64,000 nt of DNA from Capnocytophaga sp. oral taxon 878 (GTDB lineage Bacteria > Bacteroidota > Bacteroidia > Flavobacteriales > Flavobacteriaceae): the NCBI RefSeq assembly GCF_002999135.1, contig NZ_CP027229.1:930001-994000 (forward strand). The letters are read 5' to 3'. A program made the translations under genes and the position numbers. Positions 2,777 to 26,107 of the stretch are shown here, piece after piece. The notes beneath the pieces were generated by a model. It searched no databases, had not been told where the DNA came from, and worked only from the letters and a program-made list of their open reading frames with translations. Within the stretch, counting starts at the first letter, position 1, and every line of letters starts with the position of its first letter.

Positions 2777-3046
2777 GCGTCAAAAATCTGATTATCAGCT
2801 ATTTCACAACCAAACCTTCTCTTTGAAAAAATCGCAACAAAACCACCCAAAAACTACATTTTCCTCATCCCTCTTATCTCTTTGCTACCTCCTACTGTAT
2901 TCTTTAGCTACTTTATACCCAACATCATTCAGATATAAATCCTTGTATTACCTAATTAAGAAAAAAGACACTATTCCTTTTAATCCATCTATATCCGCAA
3001 AAAAAGCACTTCTTGGCATTATATTTTTAGTACCCAAACCCATACA

Positions 3047-14262: not shown

Positions 14263-15159
14263 TTACGAATTTTTAAGCTGTTCAAATAATTCTTTTTGTT
14301 TAGGGGTAAGGTTTTTAGGCAAATCAACCTGATAGGTTACAAATAAATCGCCGTGGAGGTTTTCTTGCTTGTATGCTGGTAGTCCTTTGCCTTTGAGGCG
14401 TACGATAGTGCCGTTTTGGGTTTCGGGGGCTACTTTCATTTTAACTTTACCGCTAAGGGTGTCTATTTGCACTTCGCCGCCGAGCATAGCGGTATAGAGG
14501 CTGATATGTACGGTGGTGTGCAAATCATTATCGGTGCGCTGGAAGGTGGCGTCGGGCTGGATATGGAAGGTAATGTATAAATCGCCGTGAGGGCCGCCGT
14601 TGTGACCTTGGTGTCCGTAGCCTTTGAGCTTGATTTGCAATCCTTCATAGGCGCCTGCGGGGACGGTAATGCGTATGTTATTACCATTTACGTTAAAGGT
14701 GCGTTGTTGTGCTGTGGCTACTTCGCGCAAGGGCAGAGATAATTCGGCGTAGATGTCTTGTCCTTTAAACTTTCCTGCTGCGCTGCCATAGCCACGACCG
14801 AAGCCTGAAGCGCGTCCGCCAAACATATCTTTAAAGAAATCGGAGTAATCTTGCTCGGAGAAGTTGCCGTTATTAAAGTTATTGAAGTCTTGGAAGCCTG
14901 AGTATTGGTTTTGTTGTTGGGCTTGTTCGTACTGTTCGCCGTATTGCCAATGTTCGCCGTATTTATCGTATTTAGCTCGGTTTTCGGGGTTTGAGAGTAC
15001 TTCGTTGGCTTCGTTGATTTCTTTAAACTTTTGTTCAGCTGTTTTGTCGTTGGGGTTCATATCGGGGTGATATTTGCGCGCCAACTTGCGGTAGGCTTTT
15101 TTGATGTCGTCGGGGGTAGCATCTTTATTTATGCCTAATGTTTTATAGTAATCTATCAT
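14263..15159 (-). CDS. DnaJ/CbpA-type co-chaperone
   Basis: Hsp40 co-chaperone stimulating DnaK. J-domain at residues 1-70 with the HPD motif (KYHPDMNP), then a G/F-rich linker (about 85-130) and two C-terminal beta-sandwich substrate domains. There is no Cys-rich zinc-finger region, so it is of the CbpA class. I start at ATG 15159 (298 aa): the frame extends 12 codons upstream but the promoter -7 element at 15180-15187 would place the RNA start downstream of that ATG. Paired with CbpM. Confidence 0.93.
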
Positions 15160-15179
15160 TTCTGTGAATTTTGTGAGTA

Positions 15180-15210
15180 CAAAGGTACAAAACAATTATA
15201 AAATAACAAA
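15180..15210 (-). promoter_or_regulatory. Promoter of dnaJ-cbpM
   Basis: Minus strand: TTTG (15207-15210), 19 bases, TACCTTTG (15180-15187). A clean consensus match that also fixes the dnaJ start. Confidence 0.75.
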
Positions 15211-15324
15211 TTTTTTTTTGTTAGTTTTTGGGCGTTAGCTTTCAGACATTAGAAGGGAGAAAGTATAATTTTGTACCTAAATAGAGTGTATTCTTCGCTA
15301 CCTACTTAGCTGGGGGAGCTCGCC

Positions 15325-15374
15325 AACTATCCTTCGTTTATAGTTCGTTTATCCTTCGTTATTCGTTCGTTCAG
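15325..15374 (+). repeat. 11-bp-period repeat, copy C
   Basis: AACTATCCTTCGT, TTATAGTTCGT, TTATCCTTCGT, TATTCGTTCGTTCA in the 400-base gap between dnaJ and yraN. Apart from this and the two promoters, nothing else in the gap is identifiable. Confidence 0.85.
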
Positions 15375-15507
15375 GCTAAATTGATCTTACTGTAATATCA
15401 CACTGATTTTTTATTGGAAGTAGAAGGTATGTGTAATTAAGTTTTTTGGTACTTTGATATAGATATGGCTTTGGATAGGCTTGGAATGGATGTATTTTAA
15501 TTGTTTA

Positions 15508-15537
15508 TTGTTATTTGTAAATTATTTTGTACTTTTG
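15508..15537 (+). promoter_or_regulatory. Promoter of yraN
   Basis: TTG at 15508-15510, 19 bases, TACTTTTG at 15530-15537, just upstream of the ATG at 15562. Confidence 0.65.
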
Positions 15538-15561
15538 TAGCTGTTTTTAAAAAATGGTATC

Positions 15562-15921
15562 ATGGCTGTACATAACGATTTTGGAAAAGAGGGTGAGGAA
15601 GATGCTGTGAATTTTCTTTTGGGGGAAGGTCATACTATCTTGGAGCGCAATTTTAGGTTTGGACATGCTGAAATTGATGTAATTACGCTGAAAGATGAGG
15701 TGGTGCATATAGTGGAGGTTAAGACTCGTACGAGTAGTGCCTATGGAGAACCTGAATCGTTTGTGAATAAGCAGAAGGTGGAACTTTTGGTGAAGGCTGC
15801 TAACTTTTATGTTGAGAAGATGGATTTGGATAGGGAGGTGCAGTTTGATATTGTTTCGATTGTGAAAAACAATGTGGAGTTCACGATAAACTATATTGAA
15901 GATGCTTTTTATCCGTTTTAA
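15562..15921 (+). CDS. YraN family protein (UPF0102), endonuclease-like
   Basis: 119-residue protein of the YraN/UPF0102 family, related to Holliday-junction-resolvase-like nucleases. The core motif is visible: GKEGEEDAVNFL, ILERNFRFGHAEIDVI, then VEVKTRTS with the E-x-K nuclease motif (about residues 51-57). Function in cells is not settled. Single gene with its own promoter. Confidence 0.88.
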   Translation: MAVHNDFGKEGEEDAVNFLLGEGHTILERNFRFGHAEIDVITLKDEVVHIVEVKTRTSSAYGEPESFVNKQKVELLVKAANFYVEKMDLDREVQFDIVSIVKNNVEFTINYIEDAFYPF

Positions 15922-16021
15922 TTTTTGCGTAATCTTGTAGATTGTTTTGGTGTTTTGGTTTAGAAAGAGGGACGAAATTAATTTGTTTGCTATTCATAGG
16001 AAATGTTAAAAAATTATGGTT

Positions 16022-16055
16022 TTTGTGCTTAGATAAATTATTTTTAGTACCTTTG
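16022..16055 (+). promoter_or_regulatory. Promoter of the ACT-like gene and gltX
   Basis: TTTG at 16022-16025 and TACCTTTG at 16048-16055 with 22 bases between; the -7 element is a full match, the spacing slightly long. Confidence 0.6.
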
Positions 16056-16080
16056 TGCCTGTTTTATAAATTTTGCAGAA

Positions 16081-16764
16081 ATGAAGACTATAGCAGCCGC
16101 CGTGGAGCATTATATTAAGAGCAAACCCTTTTTGCAGACAGCTCTTTCTGAAGGGATTATTAACTTAACTTCGCTAGCGCGTATTATCCGGAAGGATTTG
16201 ATAGAAGCTAATGTTTTGAGTAATGAACAGCGCGAGGATAGGGAGGTGCGTAATGGGGCTATTGTAATGGCTCTGAAACGATTGTCGGCAGATATGGAAT
16301 TTAGGTCAACACATAAGATTGTTAAGATACTGAAGAATATAGGGGAGATTACTGTTCGGGGAGACCTTACGGATTATACTTTTTTAGTATCGGAAACGCT
16401 GATGAATTGCCAAGCGGAGTTACTGCAGAAGTTACAGAATAGCAAAGATGTATTTTATGCTACTACACGTGGAGTTAATGAGACAAATTTGATTATTAGC
16501 AGCCATAAGGAGCCTTTGGTAGAGAGTATTTTTAAGAAGGAACGTAATTTGTACAAATTTGATAAATTGGGAGCGATAAGTGTAAAGCTACCTGAAGAAA
16601 ACGTATCGGTTCCTGGTATTTATTATTTTATATTTCAGCGTTTGGCGTGGGAGGGAGTTACACTGAATGAAGTGATTTCGACTACAAATGAATTTACAAT
16701 AGTGATGCCTGAGACACAGGTGAATATAGCATTCAAAGTTATTAAGGATTTAAAAATATTATAA
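16081..16764 (+). CDS. ACT-like/aspartokinase-regulatory-like protein, 227 aa
   Basis: A flavobacterial conserved protein sometimes named as aspartate kinase although it has no kinase domain. Visible are a helical N-terminal part (residues 1-90) and two C-terminal beta-alpha-beta modules: GAISVKLPEENVSVPGIYYFIFQRL and NEVISTTNEFTIVMPE, which read like ACT domains. It may sense an amino acid. It lies 7 bases upstream of gltX, so it is probably cotranscribed; the link to glutamyl-tRNA synthesis is unexplained. Confidence 0.65.
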   Translation: MKTIAAAVEHYIKSKPFLQTALSEGIINLTSLARIIRKDLIEANVLSNEQREDREVRNGAIVMALKRLSADMEFRSTHKIVKILKNIGEITVRGDLTDYTFLVSETLMNCQAELLQKLQNSKDVFYATTRGVNETNLIISSHKEPLVESIFKKERNLYKFDKLGAISVKLPEENVSVPGIYYFIFQRLAWEGVTLNEVISTTNEFTIVMPETQVNIAFKVIKDLKIL

Positions 16765-16771
16765 TATAAAG

Positions 16772-18277
16772 ATGGTAAGAGTTAGATTTGCCCCAAGTCC
16801 GACAGGGGCACTACACATAGGAGGTGTACGTACTGCGTTATTTAATTATTTATTTGCTAAGAAACACAAAGGAGAGTTTTTGCTTAGAATAGAGGATACT
16901 GACCAAAACAGGTATGTGGAAGGTGCTGAGCAGTATATTATTAACTCATTAAACTGGTTGGGACTTACTTATGATGAAGGAGTAGGTATAGAAGGAGGCA
17001 AACACGCCCCTTACCGCCAGAGTGAACGCAAGCCTTTGTATCGCCAATATGCTGATGAGCTTATTGGTAATGGCTGGGCGTATTATGCTTTTGATAGTGC
17101 TGAAGCTCTTGATGCAGCACGTGCTGAGGCAGAGGCTAAAGGAGAGACTTTTATATATAATTGGGCTACACGTGATGGATTGCAGAATTCATTATCACTT
17201 TCGGAAGAGGAAGTGAAAGCACGACTAACACGTGGTGATGAGTATGTAATTAGATTTAAAATGCCTCATACTGAAGTGCTTAAAATGAATGATATGATTA
17301 GAGGTGAGGTTACTATTGATACTAGTACCCTTGATGATAAGGTATTATTCAAAAGTGATGGAATGCCTACTTATCACTTGGCTAATATAGTAGATGACCA
17401 CCTTATGGAAATCACACACGTGATACGAGGTGAAGAATGGTTACCCTCAATGGCATTACACTTATTACTATATCGTGCTTTTGGTTGGCAAGCGCCTGCT
17501 TTTGCACATTTGCCGCTGATACTAAAACCTGTGGGCAATGGCAAACTGAGCAAGAGAGACGGTATTAAGTTAGGTTTCCCTGTATTTCCTATGGATTGGA
17601 CAGAGAATGGTGAGACTTTAAAAGGCTTTAGTGGTGAGGGGTATTTTCCTGAAGCCCTTATTAACTTTTTAGCTTTGCTAGGATGGAACCCAGGTACTGA
17701 TGAGGAAATTTTCAGTATGGAGCAACTTATCGAGTTATTTGACCTAGAAAAGGTACATAAGGCAGGAGCTAGGTTTGACCCTGAAAAGATAAAGTGGTTT
17801 AACCATCAGTATTTGCAGATGAAGCCTAATACTGTATTGGCAGAGCCTTTCAGGAAAGAGCTTATAGAGAGAGGTGTTAATGTGCCAGCAGCAACTGTAG
17901 AGAAAGTAGTAGGACTAATGAAAGAAAGAGCTACTTTTGTGAGTGATTTTTGGGAGTTAAGTAAGTTCTTTTTTGAAGCGCCTGCCCAATACGATGAGAA
18001 AGCTATTAAGAAACAATGGAAGGAACAAACACCTACTATTGTGAAAGAGATAGCTGATGTAATTGCTAATACTACTGATTTTACTGCTGCAACATTGGAA
18101 GAGGCTGTAAAGAGATATATGGAAGCTAAATCGTTGGGATTTGGACAGGTAATGCCTCCTTTGCGATTGGCCTTAGTAGGAGAGCTAAAAGGTCCGCATG
18201 TATTTGACATTATTGAGGTGATAGGAAAAGAAGAAACTCTACAAAGATTAAACACGCTTCTTTCTTCCAAAATATAA
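16772..18277 (+). CDS. gltX: Glutamate--tRNA ligase
   Basis: Class I aminoacyl-tRNA synthetase that charges tRNA-Glu in the cytoplasm. HIGH-type motif PSPTGALHIGG at residues 7-17 and KMSKS-type motif KLSKRDG near residue 258. The C-terminal anticodon-binding helical domain is intact. Length 501 is normal. Follows the ACT-like gene with a 7-base gap. Confidence 0.97.
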   Translation: MVRVRFAPSPTGALHIGGVRTALFNYLFAKKHKGEFLLRIEDTDQNRYVEGAEQYIINSLNWLGLTYDEGVGIEGGKHAPYRQSERKPLYRQYADELIGNGWAYYAFDSAEALDAARAEAEAKGETFIYNWATRDGLQNSLSLSEEEVKARLTRGDEYVIRFKMPHTEVLKMNDMIRGEVTIDTSTLDDKVLFKSDGMPTYHLANIVDDHLMEITHVIRGEEWLPSMALHLLLYRAFGWQAPAFAHLPLILKPVGNGKLSKRDGIKLGFPVFPMDWTENGETLKGFSGEGYFPEALINFLALLGWNPGTDEEIFSMEQLIELFDLEKVHKAGARFDPEKIKWFNHQYLQMKPNTVLAEPFRKELIERGVNVPAATVEKVVGLMKERATFVSDFWELSKFFFEAPAQYDEKAIKKQWKEQTPTIVKEIADVIANTTDFTAATLEEAVKRYMEAKSLGFGQVMPPLRLALVGELKGPHVFDIIEVIGKEETLQRLNTLLSSKI

Positions 18278-18303
18278 AAAAACAAAAAATATTTTTCTTT
18301 TTA

Positions 18304-18334
18304 TTTGGTAATTAGAAAAATATTCTTACCTTTG
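18304..18334 (+). promoter_or_regulatory. Promoter of the cys leader
   Basis: TTTG at 18304-18307, 19 bases, TACCTTTG at 18327-18334. It places transcription just upstream of the leader ORF at 18361. Confidence 0.75.
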
Positions 18335-18360
18335 CATCGTGAAAATAGAATAAACAACTA

Positions 18361-18441
18361 ATGAGACAATATACTTTTGAAATAATGATGATGATGTGTT
18401 GCACGCTTGGCACAAGCAGTGCAAGGCTTGTTATTTCTTAA
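18361..18441 (+). CDS. Cysteine leader peptide, 26 aa
   Basis: Short ORF reading MRQYTFEIMMMMCCTLGTSS and then ARLVIS. Two adjacent Cys codons (TGT TGC, 18397-18402) follow four Met codons. It sits between a consensus promoter and a terminator directly ahead of cysE. I infer a ribosome-stalling sensor of charged tRNA-Cys (and perhaps Met). Nothing in the peptide suggests an independent function. Short leader ORFs can arise by chance, but the RNA structures around it match the role closely. Confidence 0.8.
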   Translation: MRQYTFEIMMMMCCTLGTSSARLVIS

Positions 18442-18515
18442 AAAGTATATATTTATAGGAAGAGAATAACAACTGCCCCCACTGCTTTATAAAAAGTTAG
18501 TGGGGGCATTTTTTT
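18399..18515 (+). promoter_or_regulatory. Transcription attenuator of cysE-cysM
   Basis: Four mutually exclusive segments. 1:2 hairpin: TTGCAC-GCTTG (18399-18409) with CAAGC (18413-18417) and GTGCAA (18419-18424); arm 1 overlaps the Cys codons. 3:4 terminator: TGCCCCCACT (18474-18483) with AGTGGGGGCA (18499-18508), followed by seven Ts. 2:3 antiterminator: AAGCAGTG (18414-18421) pairs perfectly with CACTGCTT (18480-18487). A ribosome stalled at the Cys codons would hide arm 1, free arm 2 to pair with 3, and prevent the terminator. The pairings are read directly; the mechanism is inferred. Confidence 0.8.
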
Positions 18516-18526
18516 ATATTATTATT

Positions 18527-19360
18527 ATGGATTGTGCAAAATTATTGATAGAGGAACTTTATCAAGAGAGTAAAGAGGTAAAGCATCATATTGGTAAAAA
18601 GCGAATTACAAGCTTTGTAGAAGAGCTTTTTCAGTTCTTTTTTTTGATAGACAAACGAACTTGCTTATCAAAAGCTAATATAGAAGCCCAATATGAGGAA
18701 TTGCGATATGATTTCACTAATATAGTAGCTGATTTTTTATCGGAAGAGAAAAAGAAACAAGAAGTAGGTAGTTATTACGATTGCATTTTGCCAGCTATCT
18801 ACAATAAATTAAAGCAAGATGCACAGTATATTATTGATAGCGACCCTGCTGCGGCTTCATTACGTGAGGTGCAAAGTACTTACCCTGGTTTTTTTGCTAT
18901 AATGGTATACCGCATTGCTCACGAGCTATGGGAACGAGGTATCCCCCTCCTACCCCGTATACTGACTGAATATGCCCATAGTAAAACTGGAATTGATATA
19001 CACCCAGGGGCAAGGATTGGTGTACCGTTTATGATTGACCACGGCACTGGAATAGTAATAGGTGAAACTACTGTGATAGGTGACTATGTGAAATTATATC
19101 AGGGGGTTACGCTGGGAGCTTTATCAGTTTCGGTAGATAAAGCGCATACTAAGCGACACCCTACTATTGAGGATAATGTGGTTATATACTCGGGGGCTAC
19201 TATACTGGGTGGTGAAACTGTGATAGGACACGATAGTATTATTGGAGGAAATGTGTGGCTTACTAATAGTATTGAGCCTTTTACAAAGGTTTTTCATAAA
19301 AGCCAGATAATAGTGAAAGATAATATGATGTATGAAGAGCCTATCAATTTTGTGATTTAG
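18527..19360 (+). CDS. cysE: Serine O-acetyltransferase
   Basis: Makes O-acetylserine from serine and acetyl-CoA, the first committed step of cysteine synthesis. N-terminal helical domain (1-150) and a C-terminal left-handed beta-helix with hexapeptide repeats; catalytic [10 protein letters not shown] near residue 166 and [10 protein letters not shown] near 192. I start at ATG 18527 (277 aa), giving [11 protein letters not shown]. The upstream in-frame ATG at 18500 lies inside the attenuator terminator and is unlikely to be used. The final residues keep no obvious feedback-loop oddity. Followed 20 bases later by the O-acetylserine sulfhydrylase gene. Confidence 0.93.
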
Positions 19361-19380
19361 TAACTAAATTAATTAATTAT

Positions 19381-20289
19381 ATGTCGTACAAAAATGTTCT
19401 AGAAGTAATCGGGAATACGCCCGAGGTGAAAATTAACAGATTGTTTGGCAAAGATGCCAACGTATTTATCAAACTGGAGCGCTTGAATCCGGGTGGTAGT
19501 ATTAAAGACCGTATTGCACTTGCAATGATTGAGGATGCTGAAAATAAAGGTATCTTAAACAAAGACACGGTGATAGTGGAGCCTACCTCGGGCAATACAG
19601 GAGTGGGATTGGCATTGGTGGCGGCTGTGAAAGGCTATAAGCTAATTGTAGTTATGCCAGAATCGATGAGTATTGAGCGCAGGAAACTGGTAGCTGCTTA
19701 TGGGGCAGAAGTAGTGCTTACGCCTAAAGAAAAAGGTACTGGTGGTGCTATAGCTAAAGCGCTTGAAATTGCTGAAGGTAAGGCTAATTACTGGGTGCCA
19801 CAGCAGTTTGAGAACCCTGCTAACCCTGCTGTACACGAACGCACTACTGCTTTGGAGATTTTAAAATCGTTCCCTGAAGGGTTTGACTATTTTGTAACAG
19901 GAGTAGGTACTGGAGGACACATATCTGGAATTTCAAAAATATTGAAACAACATTTTCCTAACCTTAAAACAATAGCTGTAGAACCAGAGCTATCGCCAGT
20001 ACTTAGTGGAGGTAAAGCAGGTCCGCACCCTTTGCAAGGGATAGGGGCTGGTTTTGTGCCTACGAACTACAATGTTAAGCTAATTGATGAGATACTTTTA
20101 ATAAGCAAAGATGAAGCTTTTGATTATGCTCGTAGATTGGCCAGAGAGGAGGGTATTTTAGGAGGAATTTCGACAGGGGCATCGTTGGCTGCTGTAGCTA
20201 AGGTGTTGGGGAGAGACCCTAAAGCCCGTATTTTGACTGTGAATTACGACACAGGAGAGAGATACTGGTCGGTAGAAGATCTTTATTAA
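19381..20289 (+). CDS. cysM: Cysteine synthase (O-acetylserine sulfhydrylase)
   Basis: PLP enzyme converting O-acetylserine and sulfide to cysteine. PLP lysine in [12 protein letters not shown] near residue 41, substrate loop PTSGNTGVG near 68, and phosphate-binding GTGGHISG near 176. Length 302 fits CysK/CysM; I use cysM because of its N-terminus and length, but cysK is an equally valid label. Cotranscribed with cysE, so both are under the leader attenuator. Confidence 0.9.
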
Positions 20290-20441
20290 TAATTTAAAGC
20301 AAAAGCACGAAATTGGAGTTGGGGAGTTTTCTGTTTTTCAGGCGAAAATAGAAAATGTTATATTGGATAGATTTATACTTTTGAGACATACTTGGGTGGC
20401 TAACTATATTTTGAGAGATACCCAGCAGCTACAGCCTACTG

Positions 20442-20479
20442 ACTATCCTTCGTTTATCCTTCGTTATTCGTTCGTTCAG
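20442..20479 (+). repeat. 11-bp-period repeat, copy D
   Basis: ACTATCCTTCGT, TTATCCTTCGT, TATTCGTTCGTTCA in the 458-base gap after cysM. A 62-codon frame spans it but is an accident of the repeat. Confidence 0.85.
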
Positions 20480-20568
20480 CCTATAAGAAGACTGAAAGGT
20501 GGTTTCAATAGAGTTTATTTGTGTATAGAGATAAAGGAGCATTTCGTGTGATTGAGCTATTAATGATT

Positions 20569-20606
20569 AAAGCTGCTTGGCTGATGCTAAGCGGCTTTTT
20601 CATTTT
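20569..20606 (+). terminator. Terminator hairpin downstream of cysE-cysM
   Basis: AAGCTGCTT (20570-20578) pairs with AAGCGGCTT (20589-20597) with one G-T wobble, then a T-rich tail. Confidence 0.7.
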
Positions 20607-20694
20607 ATTATGGCACAGGTATTGCAGTATATAAGGGTATTGGTAATACAATACTTAGTAAATCATTATAATTCAATAAGATAACAAAAGATGG

Positions 20695-20740
20695 GTAGTA
20701 TTGCCTTGTAAGTTTTTCTGGAGACAGACAAGGTTACTAC
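20695..20740 (+). promoter_or_regulatory. Leader hairpin upstream of lon
   Basis: GTAGTA (20695-20700) pairs with TACTAC (20735-20740), and CCTTGT (20704-20709) with ACAAGG (20728-20733), separated by a small internal loop. The stem ends 7 bases before the lon ATG, so it could mask the translation start region. Confidence 0.5.
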
Positions 20741-20747
20741 TGACAAA

Positions 20748-23225
20748 ATGACATATTTCAAGCATATGGAAATGACAATAGGAAATTTTGACAGCCTTAT
20801 GGCTGAACATATAGACGATAATACTGATTTTATTCCGCTACTTACTGATGAAGATGAGCAGGAGATAGCTCGTGAGGAAACGCCACAAGTGTTGCCTATT
20901 TTACCTTTGAAAAATACGGTTCTTTTTCCTGGGGTGATTGTTCCTATTTCGGCAGGAAGAGATGCTTCTATCCGTTTAATTAATGATGCGTATGAAACAA
21001 CTCGTACTATTGGAGTTGTAGCACAGCTGAATGAGGATACTGAAGTGCCTGAAGGGAAAGATGTGTATAGGCTGGGTACTGTGGCTACGATATTGAGAGT
21101 GCTGAAAATGCCTGATGGTAGTGTAACTGTTATTATTCAGGGTAAAAAGCGTTTTCTTATAGAGGGTATTGTTGAAGAAAAGCCTTACTTGAGAGCGGCT
21201 ATCAGAGAGGTATCGGATGTGAAGCCAGAGCCTAATGATAAGGTTTTTGAGGCTACTATTGAAGAGGTAAAAGACTTGGCTATCAAGATTATACAAGCTA
21301 ATCCTAATATACCATCGGAAGCAGCTTTTGCTATTAAGAATATAGAAAGCACTTCGTTCCTTATCAATTTCATTGCATCAAATATGAATGCTACTGTGCT
21401 TGAGAAGCAAGCTGTATTGGAGATTGATGAACTGAAAGAAAGAGCTACTTCTATCTTGAAATATCTGAATATAGACTTGCAAAGGCTTACTTTACGCAAT
21501 GAAGTTCAGTCTAAAACTCGTATTGATATTGATAAACAGCAACGAGAATACTTTTTGCATCAGCAGATGCGTACTATTCAAGAAGAATTGGGAGGAGTAT
21601 CATACGAGCAAGAAATAGAGCAGCTTAAGGAGCGAGCTAAGAAGAAAAAATGGGATAAGAAAATAAAGGAACTCTTTGAAAAAGAACTAAATAAACTGCA
21701 ACGTACGAATCCTAATAGTCCTGATTATGGTATCCAACGGAATTACTTAGATGTGCTATTGGAGCTGCCTTGGAATGAATATTCTAAAGATAATTTTGAC
21801 CTGAAAAGGGCTCAAAAGATTTTAGATAAGGAGCATTATGGGTTGGAAGAGGTAAAACGTCGTATTATTGAGTATTTGGCGGTATTGAAATTGCGCAATG
21901 ATATGAAATCGCCTATATTGTGTTTTTATGGTCCTCCAGGGGTTGGTAAGACATCTTTGGGGCGTTCGATAGCTAAAGCGTTAAATAGAGAATACGTACG
22001 AATGTCGCTTGGAGGATTACACGATGAGGCGGAGATACGAGGACACCGAAAGACCTATATAGGTGCAATGCCTGGACGTATATTGCAACAGCTGAAGAAA
22101 GTAAAGACTTCTAACCCTGTATTTGTGCTAGATGAAATAGATAAATTAGGTAATAACAGTTACCAAGGAGACCCTTCGGCAGCTATGCTTGAGGTGCTTG
22201 ACCCAGAACAGAATAAAGAGTTTTATGACAACTTTTTAGAGATGGGATATGACCTATCAAAAGTGATGTTTATTGCTACAGCTAATGACCTATCGACTAT
22301 ACAGCCAGCTTTGCTTGACCGTATGGAGATTATTAATGTTTCGGGCTATACTATTGAAGAAAAAACAGAAATAGCCAAACGCCATTTGATACCTAAACAG
22401 CTGAAAGAGCATGGAATGAAATCAGCAGATATTCAACTTGGTAAGAAGGAGATAGAGCGTGTAGTAGAGGGATATACACGTGAGTCGGGAGTGCGTTCAT
22501 TGGAAAAGCAAATAGCAAAAATAGTGCGTTACGGGGCTAAAAACTTAGCTACTGAAGAAGAGTATGACCCTAAACTAAACATAGAGACTATAGAGAAAAT
22601 ATTAGGTCCTGCCCGCTTAGAACGAGATAAATATGAAAATAATGAAGTAGCAGGTGTAGTTACGGGTTTGGCTTGGACAAGTGTAGGAGGTGATATACTT
22701 TTTATAGAGTCGGCTTTATCTAAAGGAAAAGGAACACTAAATATTACAGGTAATTTGGGGCAGGTTATGAAAGAATCGGCTACCATAGCATGGGAATACT
22801 TAAAAGCTAATGCTGAGCGCTACAATCTTAATAATAAGCTATTTGACAACTACGATGTGCATATACATGTGCCTGAAGGGGCTACCCCTAAAGATGGACC
22901 TAGTGCAGGAATAGCTATGCTCACCTCATTAATGTCGATATTCACTCAAAAGCGTGTAAAAAAACACTTGGCTATGACAGGGGAAATTACCTTACGTGGC
23001 AAAGTATTACCTGTAGGAGGGCTTAAAGAAAAAATATTGGCAGGAAAACGAGCTGGTATTAAAGAATATATATTGTGTAAGGATAATGAAAAGGATATTT
23101 TGGAAATTAAGCAAGATTATCTTAAAGGATTAACCTTTCACTATGTGACTGATATGGAGGAAGTAATACGCTTAGCTATTACAAATGAAGACGCTAAATA
23201 CAAAAAAGTTTTATCTTTTGAGTAA
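20748..23225 (+). CDS. lon: ATP-dependent protease Lon
   Basis: Cytosolic AAA+ serine protease degrading misfolded and regulatory proteins. N-terminal LON substrate domain (about 45-250), AAA+ module with Walker A GPPGVGKTS near residue 395 and Walker B FVLDEIDK near 460, and a C-terminal S16 protease domain with the catalytic Ser in PKDGPSAGIAM near 715 and the Lys in VGGLKEKILAGKRAG near 757. Length 825 is normal. ATG 20748 and 20772 are both possible starts; a leader hairpin precedes the first. Confidence 0.96.
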   Translation: MTYFKHMEMTIGNFDSLMAEHIDDNTDFIPLLTDEDEQEIAREETPQVLPILPLKNTVLFPGVIVPISAGRDASIRLINDAYETTRTIGVVAQLNEDTEVPEGKDVYRLGTVATILRVLKMPDGSVTVIIQGKKRFLIEGIVEEKPYLRAAIREVSDVKPEPNDKVFEATIEEVKDLAIKIIQANPNIPSEAAFAIKNIESTSFLINFIASNMNATVLEKQAVLEIDELKERATSILKYLNIDLQRLTLRNEVQSKTRIDIDKQQREYFLHQQMRTIQEELGGVSYEQEIEQLKERAKKKKWDKKIKELFEKELNKLQRTNPNSPDYGIQRNYLDVLLELPWNEYSKDNFDLKRAQKILDKEHYGLEEVKRRIIEYLAVLKLRNDMKSPILCFYGPPGVGKTSLGRSIAKALNREYVRMSLGGLHDEAEIRGHRKTYIGAMPGRILQQLKKVKTSNPVFVLDEIDKLGNNSYQGDPSAAMLEVLDPEQNKEFYDNFLEMGYDLSKVMFIATANDLSTIQPALLDRMEIINVSGYTIEEKTEIAKRHLIPKQLKEHGMKSADIQLGKKEIERVVEGYTRESGVRSLEKQIAKIVRYGAKNLATEEEYDPKLNIETIEKILGPARLERDKYENNEVAGVVTGLAWTSVGGDILFIESALSKGKGTLNITGNLGQVMKESATIAWEYLKANAERYNLNNKLFDNYDVHIHVPEGATPKDGPSAGIAMLTSLMSIFTQKRVKKHLAMTGEITLRGKVLPVGGLKEKILAGKRAGIKEYILCKDNEKDILEIKQDYLKGLTFHYVTDMEEVIRLAITNEDAKYKKVLSFE

Positions 23226-23265
23226 TAATTCGTACCTTTGCCCCCTCAATAAAGATTAAAATAAG

Positions 23266-23937
23266 ATGAATAAAAATCAAGAAGACGATATATTAGGTGA
23301 AAACCATATTGCTACTTCGGCAATAACACCTCTAAGAGCAGATGCTTTTATAATGAGTGATGCTGAAAAAATAGCTGATATTGAACAACATGTACGTGCT
23401 ATACTCCACACTTTGGGTATGGATTTAACTGATGACAGCCTAAAAGGAACTCCTAAACGTGTAGCAAAAATGTTTGTAAAAGAGATTTTTGGAGGTTTAT
23501 CACCTGAACGTAAACCTTCAATGTCTACCTTTAATAATTCATACCGTTATGGTGAAATGCTGGTAGAAAAAAATATAGTGGTATACTCTACCTGCGAGCA
23601 TCACTTGCTACCCATTGTAGGACGTGCTCATGTGGGATATATATCTAATGGTAAGGTATTAGGTTTATCAAAAATGAACCGTATTGTAGAATATTATGCT
23701 AAACGCCCTCAAGTACAAGAGCGCTTAACTATGCAAATAGTACAAGAGATGCAACGTGCTCTTGGCACTGAAGATGTAGCTTGTATTATTGATGCAAAAC
23801 ACCTATGTGTAAACTCACGCGGCATTGAGGATATTGACAGTAGTACTGTTACTGCTGAATTTGGCGGAAAATTTAAAGATCCTGAAGTAAGAAAGGAGTT
23901 TTTGGAATATATCAAGTTAGAAACAAGGTTTCATTAA
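23266..23937 (+). CDS. folE: GTP cyclohydrolase 1
   Basis: Converts GTP to dihydroneopterin triphosphate, first step of folate/tetrahydropterin synthesis. Zinc and catalytic residues are visible: Cys and His in YSTCEHHLLPIVG near residue 107-119, KMNRIVEYYAKRPQVQERLT near 137, and CVNSRGI near 184. Length 223 is typical; the first 30 residues are a poorly conserved tail. A TACCTTTG promoter element lies at 23233-23240, between lon and folE, without a well-spaced -33 box. Confidence 0.95.
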   Translation: MNKNQEDDILGENHIATSAITPLRADAFIMSDAEKIADIEQHVRAILHTLGMDLTDDSLKGTPKRVAKMFVKEIFGGLSPERKPSMSTFNNSYRYGEMLVEKNIVVYSTCEHHLLPIVGRAHVGYISNGKVLGLSKMNRIVEYYAKRPQVQERLTMQIVQEMQRALGTEDVACIIDAKHLCVNSRGIEDIDSSTVTAEFGGKFKDPEVRKEFLEYIKLETRFH

Positions 23938-23998
23938 TTTGTAATAGAGATTTCTTGGTTACTTTACTAAGTAAACTTTAAAATAAGATATAAAGTTA

Positions 23999-24030
23999 GG
24001 GCTGAATCTATAAAAGATTTCAGCCCCTTT
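23999..24030. terminator. Terminator between folE and dcp
   Basis: GGGCTGAATC and GATTTCAGCCC form a stem with one bulged A, placed between convergent genes. A nearly identical stem occurs at 62361-62393. Confidence 0.65.
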
Positions 24031-24064
24031 CTCTAAAGTTTTTAAGGAGAAGCCTTTATACTTT

Positions 24065-26107
24065 TTATTCGTATTTTAAACCTCTTGCTTTCAATAAAGA
24101 TTCTATAGAAGGAGCTTTACCTCTAAAATTAAGATACATCTGCTCATAATCCATAGTGTTACCTTTAGATAGGATAAGCTCTCGGAAACGCTGCCCATTG
24201 GCACGAGTAAGTCCACCATTTTCTTCAAACCATTGGTAGGCATCGTGGCAAAGCATTTCTGTCCATTGGTAAGAATAATAGCCTGCTCCATAGCCTCCTC
24301 CAAAAATATGTACAAAATAAGAAGAACGATAACGTGGAGGTACCTCTTTCATCCATAAACCTGTCTTTTGTAGGGCTGTTTTTTCAAAATCACTTACATT
24401 GGTTATAAGTGTATCAGAAGGGATAGTATGCCACTGAAGATCTAAATTAGCTGCTGCTAATACCTCAGTGAAAGCATAGCCCTCATTGAAGGTACTTGCT
24501 TTTTTTATTTTATCAATAAGAGTTTGAGGTATGAGCTGCTTAGTTTCATAATGTATAGCATAATTCTTTAATATATCAGGATATAGAGCCCAATATTCAT
24601 TGAACTGTGAAGGTAACTCTACAAAATCACGTGCTACAGCTGTACCTGATAAACTAGCATACTGCTGATTAGCAAAGAAACCGTGCAGAGCATGACCAAA
24701 CTCATGGAAAAGAGTAGTAACCTCATCATAGGTAAGGAAAGTAGGCTTTCCTTGGGCTGTTTTCACATAATTACATACATTATAAATAACTGGTTTTGTA
24801 CCCAGTAGTTTAGATTGATTCACAAAATTACTCATCCATGCCCCTCCTCGTTTGCTTTCACGAGCATAGAAGTCACCATAGAAAAGCCCTAGCGGACTAC
24901 CATCTTCTTCAAAAAGCTCATATACTAGCACATCAGGATGATATACAGGTATATCATTACGCTCTTTAAAAGTAATACCATAAAGTTTGGTAGCTGCATA
25001 AAACACTCCTTTTTCTAAGACAGTCTTCAACTCAAAATAAGGCTTGATTTTATTCTCATCAAGATCATATTTAGCTTTACGTACTTGTTCAGCATAGAAA
25101 TTCCAATCATAAGGTTCTAAAACAAAACTACCTCCTGTTTTAGCTATTTGTGCTTGTATTTCTTTAGCTTCAGCCTTAGCCTTTTCTACTGAAGCAGGCA
25201 CCAAATCTTTGAAAAACTGATAAATAGCAGTTGGATTCTTAACCATAGTACGTTGTAAGCTCCATTCAGCATAGTTCTTAAACCCTAAAAGTTCTGATTT
25301 CTTAGCACGAAGTAATGCTATACGTGTAAGAATATCATTGGTATTATAATCACTTCCTTCAGTACGATACCAAGCAGCTTCAAAAAGTTGTTTACGAGCA
25401 TTACGATCAGCTAAATTACTAAGCATAGGCTGCTGAGTAGTATTCACAATAGCCACCTTCTCTCCATTAATAGTTGGTGCTGCTGCTAATGTTCCCTCTA
25501 AAAGAGTCTGGTTAAAATTAGTCTCTAATGAAGCTAACTCACTATTGTATCGCTTTAAAATCTCTTTATCAGCTGCAGAGAGGTTTGCTCCTGCTATTAT
25601 AAAATCATCATAATAGTTCTCCAATAGTTTTAATGATTCAGGATCCAAATGCAAACTTTCACGCTTATTATATAATTTCTTAATACGTTCAAACAGCTTT
25701 TCATTAAGGTGAATACCATCGATATGTTCTGAAAACTTAGGTGAAAGCTCTTTTTGTAGTAGTTTTAAGGTATCATTTGTATGAGCTTCAGTAAGAGCAT
25801 GATATACTGCTGAAGTACGTTCCAACTCTACCCCACTCTTCTCTAAAGCTACTATTGTATTCTCAAAAGTAGGATCTTCTGAATTTTCTACTATTGCATT
25901 AATACGCTCATTTTGTAATGCCATATCTTTCAACAAAGCAGGACGATAATGTTCATCCTTAATCTTTGAAAAATCAGGAGCACCATAAGGTAATTTACTT
26001 ACTTCTAACAAAGGGTTTTGTTCACTATTATCTATCATTTCATTATCTTTTGAAGTGTTACAGCTAATTGCTATAAGCAATACAGCTGATAATATCGGTA
26101 ATTTCAT
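24065..26107 (-). CDS. dcp: M3 family peptidyl-dipeptidase (Dcp-like), lipoprotein
   Basis: Zinc metallopeptidase that removes C-terminal dipeptides from oligopeptides. The catalytic site HEFGHALHGFF is near residue 463, followed by the third ligand Glu region about 25 residues later (VELPSQFNEYW). Length 680 is normal. The N-terminus carries a lipoprotein signal (LLIAISC with Cys at residue 16), so the enzyme is probably anchored facing the periplasm rather than cytosolic. Last gene after the pyrophosphatase, separated from it by a terminator. Confidence 0.92.
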   Translation of the reverse strand: MKLPILSAVLLIAISCNTSKDNEMIDNSEQNPLLEVSKLPYGAPDFSKIKDEHYRPALLKDMALQNERINAIVENSEDPTFENTIVALEKSGVELERTSAVYHALTEAHTNDTLKLLQKELSPKFSEHIDGIHLNEKLFERIKKLYNKRESLHLDPESLKLLENYYDDFIIAGANLSAADKEILKRYNSELASLETNFNQTLLEGTLAAAPTINGEKVAIVNTTQQPMLSNLADRNARKQLFEAAWYRTEGSDYNTNDILTRIALLRAKKSELLGFKNYAEWSLQRTMVKNPTAIYQFFKDLVPASVEKAKAEAKEIQAQIAKTGGSFVLEPYDWNFYAEQVRKAKYDLDENKIKPYFELKTVLEKGVFYAATKLYGITFKERNDIPVYHPDVLVYELFEEDGSPLGLFYGDFYARESKRGGAWMSNFVNQSKLLGTKPVIYNVCNYVKTAQGKPTFLTYDEVTTLFHEFGHALHGFFANQQYASLSGTAVARDFVELPSQFNEYWALYPDILKNYAIHYETKQLIPQTLIDKIKKASTFNEGYAFTEVLAAANLDLQWHTIPSDTLITNVSDFEKTALQKTGLWMKEVPPRYRSSYFVHIFGGGYGAGYYSYQWTEMLCHDAYQWFEENGGLTRANGQRFRELILSKGNTMDYEQMYLNFRGKAPSIESLLKARGLKYE

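Follow-up and report, generated by a model that had tools for sequence, protein, structure and literature searches.

A candidate cysteine attenuator ahead of cysE-cysK in Capnocytophaga

We analysed a stretch of 64,000 nucleotides (the window) from the 2.99 Mb genome of Capnocytophaga sp. oral taxon 878 (G000), and found that the leader preceding its cysE and cysK genes is very probably a ribosome-mediated transcription attenuator which senses charged tRNA-Cys. The anatomy of this leader, its conservation in the genus and, by calculation, the competition between its alternative folds are established here. Attenuation is favoured because the order and spacing of all the elements are kept in nine of nine leaders belonging to one CysE clade, because a modelled ribosome placed at the Cys codons yields the antiterminator in all nine, and because strand 2 of the structure is kept as RNA and Cys leaders recur before a receptor gene and before other cysE genes. 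If correct, this adds a biosynthetic operon of Bacteroidota to the range of Cys-codon attenuation with an intrinsic terminator, and a defined switch together with a set of targets is now at hand for testing.

Anatomy of the leader and its alternative folds

An earlier note on this DNA had described a leader ORF with adjacent Cys codons, an anti-antiterminator stem overlapping these codons, an 8-bp alternative pairing and a terminator with seven Ts, arranged in the proper order between a promoter and cysE. All of these segments were found in place (Table 1). The antiterminator proved to be longer than first noted, since an inner helix adds to the 8-bp pairing. The leader terminator was not picked up by a program scan for simple terminators, which covers loops of 3-8 bases only, and the accompanying promoter scan was of the sigma-70 type, with the leader promoter type outside its coverage.

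Table 1. Coordinates of the leader locus in the window and of Cys leaders in other genomes
Feature	Position	Strand	Remarks
gltX	end at 18277		upstream of leader
Promoter TTTG-N19-TACCTTTG	18304..18334	+	box match in sequence
Leader ORF MRQYTFEIMMMMCCTLGTSSARLVIS, 26 codons, TAA stop counted in	18361..18441	+	open in nine of nine genus leaders
Four Met codons	18385..18396	+	immediately precede the Cys codons; may be a second sensor
Tandem Cys codons TGT TGC	18397..18402	+	proposed sensor; kept in relatives
Strand 1 GCACGCTT	18401..18408	+	anti-antiterminator partner of strand 2; overlaps second Cys codon
Strand 2 AAGCAGTGC	18414..18422	+	common to anti-antiterminator and antiterminator
Inner antiterminator helix, 5' arm	18428..18435	+	overlaps final leader codons
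Inner antiterminator helix, 3' arm	18465..18472	+
Strand 3 CACTGCTT	18480..18487	+	strand 2 partner; overlaps 5' arm of terminator
8-bp alternative pairing, AAGCAGTG with CACTGCTT	18414-18421 with 18480-18487	+
Intrinsic terminator with seven Ts	18474..18515	+	stem 18474-18483/18499-18508, about -23 kcal/mol; Ts 18509-18515
cysE, serine O-acetyltransferase	18527..19360	+	ATG 18527; profile and PDB matches
cysK-type cysteine synthase	19381..20289	+	starts 20 bases past cysE
Receptor leaders L313, L314, L315, L316	G013:C82, G007:C17, G011:C7, G017:C136		about 180-315 bases upstream of receptor match
Flavobacterium Cys-rich leaders L086, L104, L112, L115	from 2768, 2591, 2835, 2794		cysE at 3001; e.g. 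MFLDQIYMACCKCCFRIREGLAMS

The product of the first gene clearly matches serine acetyltransferases in the PDB (E 5.9e-59) and scores 163 bits with the NCBIfam model TIGR01172, under the cut-off of 211. The second gene, previously named cysM, scores as cysK (405 bits with TIGR01139, cut-off 351; 253 bits with the cysM model TIGR01138, below the cut-off of 394), which is a matter of naming.

The promoter boxes are of the Bacteroidota -33/-7 type. Sites of the form TTTG-N18-20-TAnnTTTG number 12 in the window versus 1.75 expected, and this pattern is useful to mark transcription starts there. The same boxes, at a spacing of 19 nt, precede seven of the nine leaders identified in the genus; the promoters of L011 (TTTT, TACCTTAG) and L012 (TTGT, 20 nt) deviate. 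The distance from the -7 box to the ATG of the leader ORF is 26 nt, with the transcription start predicted.

In the mechanism that we propose, RNA polymerase would start at this promoter and a ribosome would follow on the leader ORF. With cysteine plentiful, the ribosome would pass the Cys codons and strands 1 and 2 would pair, leaving strand 3 free for the terminator, so that transcription would end before cysE. With cysteine scarce, it would stall on the Cys codons and cover strand 1; strand 3 would then be captured by strand 2, with the inner helix assisting, so that the terminator would be blocked and cysE-cysK transcribed. That the leader is translated, that ribosomes stall on it and that the polymerase terminates or reads through are all predictions of this model.

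The RNA of positions 18340-18515 folds at -54.0 kcal/mol, as compared with -30.8 +/- 3.86 for shuffled sequences (z -6.0); for positions 18390-18515 and for the antiterminator part alone the z values against shuffles are -5.55 and -3.56, respectively. When positions 18412-18485 are folded alone, they form the antiterminator (the 8-bp pairing, except for its last two bases, which this stretch excludes, and the inner helix). Folding of both states, as the earlier note had proposed, gave in calculation two mutually exclusive structures sharing strand 2. With the terminator arm taken as given, antiterminator duplexes as good as those of the nine genus leaders (L004-L012) arise in 10, 0, 2, 32, 3, 2, 14, 2 and 7 of 500 shuffles, the first value being that of the window. 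Each of the nine carries a terminator with a T-rich tail (-13.2 to -26.2 kcal/mol).

Structural conservation was assessed against 500 shuffles in an alignment of the nine leaders, in which the row of L009 is misaligned in the 3' arm of the terminator. In the terminator state 88.7% of pairs are standard, a value that no shuffle equals, and 90.5% of the cells of its anti-antiterminator helix (strand 1:2) are paired. For the antiterminator, 91.3% of cells are paired (reached by 3 of 500 shuffles) and the covariation score is reached by 12 of 500, both being measures that relatedness alone can inflate; the strand 2:3 helix reaches 97.2%, and the inner helix 83% with two pairs changed on both sides. 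Versions of the structures slid along the alignment pair at 33-69%, versus 89-91% in place. In L007, for which 32 of 500 shuffles gave as good a duplex, a single change in strand 3 disrupts one pair in each of the two states. Compensatory changes, which the earlier note had hoped to see in relatives, are evident in the terminator state (6 of 20 pairs with changes on both sides, reached by 4 of 500 shuffles), but in the antiterminator (3 of 14 pairs, reached by 82 of 500) they do not go beyond chance.

The nine leader ORFs, all open and all preceding cysE-cysK, contain a Cys-Cys pair (Trp-Cys in L010). The second Cys codon is conserved in all of them, with one synonymous change (TGC to TGT), and the first in eight; L010 has TGG there and another Cys two codons upstream. 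Codons 5' of the pair show 1 synonymous versus 114 nonsynonymous changes across all pairs of seven leaders, and the N-terminal part is therefore not conserved as protein. The core of strand 2, GC(A/G)GTG, begins 19 nt past the first Cys codon in eight leaders and 18 nt past it in L012; since its frame differs in L012, strand 2 is conserved as RNA.

The strong conservation of strands 2 and 3, in both structure and sequence, would also suit an RNA that binds a metabolite or a protein, in which the ORF would be incidental. We consider this very improbable, as no Rfam family matched at gathering threshold in the window or at E up to 1 in positions 15000-25000, and the Cys codons lie in an open frame in all nine leaders and also in different leaders before a second gene.

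The effect of the ribosome position, central to attenuation, was modelled by calculating pairing probabilities on transcripts ending before the 3' arm of the terminator, with a footprint, which we took to be 27 nt, held unpaired. In this model, which describes equilibrium only, the probability of the strand 2:3 pairing with no ribosome is 0-0.03 in seven of nine leaders, 0.77 in L012 and 1.0 in L006, the latter two preferring the antiterminator even in this state. With a Cys codon in the A site of a ribosome it is 0.82-1.0 in all nine. With the ribosome at the stop codon, the antiterminator probability is 0-0.06 in L004, L007 and L008 and 0.34-0.99 in the other six, so that the cysteine-rich “off” state of these six would need ribosome release and re-pairing.

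The Met codons before the Cys pair had led to the suggestion that methionine is sensed as well, in which case the leader would answer to shortage of either amino acid. An ATG at position -1 relative to the pair is present in nine of nine cysE leaders (at -3 in eight and at -2 in five), each of the four receptor leaders described below has a Met codon no more than two codons 5' of its first Cys codon, and a modelled ribosome on the -1 Met codon gives antiterminator probabilities of 0.81-1.0 in nine of nine. However, with stalls at earlier Met codons the antiterminator is only partly freed in some leaders (0.04 in L007 at -3; 0.65 at -3 and 0.75 at -4 in L004), the ATGs could be spare start codons, and the Cys leaders of Flavobacterium do not keep Met directly 5' of the Cys run. 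We regard a dual sensor as possible but rather unlikely.

Conservation with one CysE lineage of the genus

Matches to CysE were found in 16 of 20 genomes of the genus (15 clear; weak only in G019). The leader lies directly upstream of cysE in nine of the 15 (CysE identity 65-100%), with the order, the spacing and the alternative pairings kept in all nine; the earlier note had proposed to look for the leader in related genomes. The remaining six (L013-L018, CysE identity 49-52%) have no leader before cysE, which was counted as evidence against attenuation. In a CysE tree built from 47 chosen rows (15 from the genus, 22 taken from the 80 named loci and 10 from the 112 family loci), the nine leader-bearing proteins form one clade (100/99). 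Five of the six leaderless ones make up a second clade, and L016, the remaining one, clusters with the proteins of Cloacibacterium and Chryseobacterium; rows named Flavobacterium and Myroides are found among those of the family. On the basis of this tree, every one of the nine members sampled from a single CysE clade has the leader, and the leaderless genomes carry a different CysE. The earlier note had held that the attenuator would be refuted by relatives that keep cysE but lack the paired segments or the Cys codons; the six genomes do fit this description, but their CysEs are of other lineages.

At least three CysE lineages of the genus are recognisable in the tree (L013-L018, with L016 of G003 standing apart). 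The position of L016 in the tree may reflect a replacement or a transfer of cysE.

The start of CysK was found downstream of cysE in all nine leader loci, and the end of gltX was recognised upstream in six. The latter arrangement would be expected if the hairpin were a mere terminator of gltX and the short ORF a product of chance. In the other three (L005, L011 and L012), no gltX end was seen within about 440 bases upstream and the leader is nevertheless kept, so the element goes with cysE and not with gltX. Moreover, promoter-like boxes (two of them deviating) lie just 5' of the leader in nine of nine loci, the antiterminator complementarity exceeds that of shuffles, and the design recurs before a receptor gene. 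A simple gltX terminator is thus hardly credible, and we retain attenuation as the probable function of the element.

A covariance model built from the nine leaders was searched in 397 genomes of the family, only three of them from the genus, and matched 13: two strongly, both in the genus, and eleven at E 0.002-0.045. Inspection of all eleven revealed no tandem Cys codons in a short ORF. In a search within the genus, the nine strong matches were the training rows and hence match by construction; six weaker ones were also inspected, and one of these, L041, led to the receptor leaders. The pattern ATGATGTGYTGY (MMCC) gave 31 matches in 16 of the 20 genus genomes, and among 30 loci inspected seven were leaders with a terminator (five before cysE, two before the receptor), the others being chance or coding matches. 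A longer pattern, AAYATGATGTGYTGY (NMMCC), was present in 32 of the 397 family genomes; the 30 loci inspected included no convincing leader with a terminator (L286 has a weak hairpin only).

One of these eleven weaker family matches to the covariance model, L023 (G041:C2:27566-27669), contains a short ORF, MTIIYTNNKAMKMRYQKVQGLLFV, and a terminator, and resembles the N-terminus of the leader without its Cys codons. Two downstream frames were searched in Pfam: one has no family and the other is a periplasmic binding protein.

Cys leaders before a receptor gene

The weak covariance match L041 corresponds to a leader, MFLIQRNNMMMCCPMPYPCKTS, ahead of a gene for a TonB-dependent receptor with Plug and CarbopepD domains. 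This receptor occurs in four of 20 genus genomes (E <= 1e-100) and is absent from the window's own genome. A short Cys leader and a terminator precede it in all four (MFLIQRNNMMMCCPMPYPCKTS, MSIIRRNNMMCCSMAYP, MTFTSKNMMMLCSMVSP, which has a single Cys, and MEFILPAYQPTIMCCRFQPSGRNVV). For the antiterminator duplexes of these leaders, 8, 1, 0 and 11 of 500 shuffles were as good. With a modelled ribosome at Cys, the strand 2:3 probability is 1.0 in four of four; without a ribosome L313 and L316 already stand at 0.98 and 1.0, and the other two leaders at 0.02 and 0. The corresponding values for L313-L316 when the ribosome occupies the stop codon are 0, 0.81, 0.94 and 0.55.

In G017 the receptor gene with its own leader lies just 3' of cysK, so that this single locus has two Cys leaders. 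In G013 a gamma-glutamyltranspeptidase gene is situated upstream of the receptor leader, and the sequence upstream of the leader in G007 and G011 is similar to that of G013 by eye. Because of this neighbouring gene, the receptor may perhaps serve for glutathione or its fragments. We consider it an evenly balanced question whether the genus runs a small regulon for cysteine (perhaps also methionine) by attenuation, comprising synthesis by cysE-cysK and TonB-dependent uptake, perhaps of glutathione or fragments of it. The receptor leaders would hint at a way of taking up cysteine or a compound that contains it, and attenuation of an outer-membrane receptor by the ribosome would, if true, be a new use of the mechanism.

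Relatives of the receptor were present in 47 of 249 family genomes (E <= 1e-110), and 30 of these 47 loci were inspected. Eight of the 30, all from outside the genus, have a short ORF with 2-3 Cys in six codons; a convincing terminator was found in none. Within this sample of 30 relatives and the genus genomes, the receptor leader is known from the genus alone.

Known attenuators and Cys leaders in other Bacteroidota

In the his and trp attenuators of enteric bacteria, a leader peptide with regulatory codons, strands 1-3 and a terminator precede the first gene. The cysE-cysK leader shares this arrangement, but differs in having Cys codons, a stop codon located 3' of strand 2, and an inner antiterminator helix which overlaps the end of the leader ORF. 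Mycobacterial Cys leaders (Canestrari 2020) are said by citing papers to act by translation attenuation, with leaderless ORFs. The present leader is similar in placing Cys codons one after another in a short ORF upstream of cysteine genes; unlike those leaderless ORFs as so described, it has its ATG separated from the -7 box by 26 nt (predicted start), and a terminator follows. We know of little reported work on how Bacteroidota regulate their sulfur amino acids.

The closest counterpart is not in this phylum. The uORFC-8-2 motif, located before cysS of Rhodobacterales, has been proposed as a ribosome-mediated Cys attenuator that answers to charged tRNA-Cys (PMC8632094). According to its published description, it has a uORF with two tandem Cys codons in the first stem and an intrinsic terminator as the second, like the leader studied here (PMC8632094). 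It belongs to alphaproteobacteria and to cysS, whereas we found cysE-cysK and a receptor gene in Bacteroidota; as the gene that follows is cysE and not cysS, the leader differs from the motif in location. In Actinobacteria, poly-Cys leader ORFs which respond to cysteine precede cysteine genes, and the passage concerned reports no conserved terminator hairpin (PMC1262725).

Elements of this kind have been reported or suspected in Bacteroidota, as far as the relevant passages go: the Bacteroid-trp RNA (RF01692) is listed for Bacteroidetes (PMC2864571), leader-peptide attenuation before amino-acid operons, unnamed in the passage, is described in Flavobacterium psychrophilum (PMC9723704), and attenuation by leaders is suspected in Bacteroides thetaiotaomicron, where long 5' UTRs contain short ORFs (PMC7366714). 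Neither RF01692 nor any other Rfam model matched the leader. The statement of the earlier note that no cysteine attenuator had been described in the phylum was uncontradicted by the literature searched, which lay mostly outside subscription journals; the passages on leader-peptide attenuation in the phylum name no Cys cases. The same literature yielded no leader-peptide control of a TonB-dependent receptor. Within these sources, the mechanism is classical and a Cys attenuator with an intrinsic terminator had already been proposed (Rhodobacterales cysS); the interest of testing the present one lies in its target genes, in its phylum and in the receptor leaders.

Cys leaders were also sought before cysE in other Bacteroidota, among the best 80 named loci listed, none of which is named as Capnocytophaga; 77 were used, L069, L088 and L111 being skipped on account of short upstream sequence. 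Short ORFs with at least three Cys in six codons occur in 10 of these 77, where shuffles and other windows of the same loci each lead one to expect about 1.5; ORFs with at least four occur in five of the 77, as against 0.03 and 0.16, respectively. A terminator was recognised in six of the ten Cys-rich leaders (L082, L086, L092, L104, L112 and L115). L122 has a very weak hairpin only, and L059, L090 and L134 have no terminator. The antiterminators of the four Flavobacterium leaders (L086, L104, L112 and L115) are equalled by 5, 2, 47 and 8 of 500 shuffles, and these leaders differ from that of the genus. For L082 and L092, the antiterminator was not beyond shuffles (134 and 392 of 500).

Among family genomes, 113 of 199 matched CysE and 112 upstream regions were examined (two rows of the genus itself were left out, G145 was counted twice, and L194 and L196 show a stop in the matched start). 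Four of the 112 contain at least three Cys in six codons: L236, with a terminator and an antiterminator equalled by 23 of 500 shuffles, L224, whose Cys-rich ORF lacks a terminator, and L165 and L185, which look like chance and were set aside. Across the family such ORFs are therefore uncommon.

This distribution suggests repeated gain of Cys leaders, or their loss in most lineages, and Bacteroidota may have acquired them on several occasions. With their differing Cys leaders, these cysE genes may be an instance in which one form of control evolved repeatedly.

Several further ORFs were noted upstream of cysE. L082 and L092 come from two related Bacteroidetes MAGs and have CCCCC and CCC leaders with a terminator within about 200 bases of cysE. 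Poly-Cys ORFs are found in L059 (CCCC), L122 (CCCCCC) and L133 (CCICCC, with a TTG start); no convincing terminator was seen in L059 and L122, and from their sequences these three ORFs could act on translation instead. One of the two cysE genes of G145 is preceded, roughly 120-130 bases upstream of its inferred start, by a 5-codon ORF below the length cut used (L142, G145:C27), which reads ATG TGT ATG TGT TGT TAA (MCMCC).
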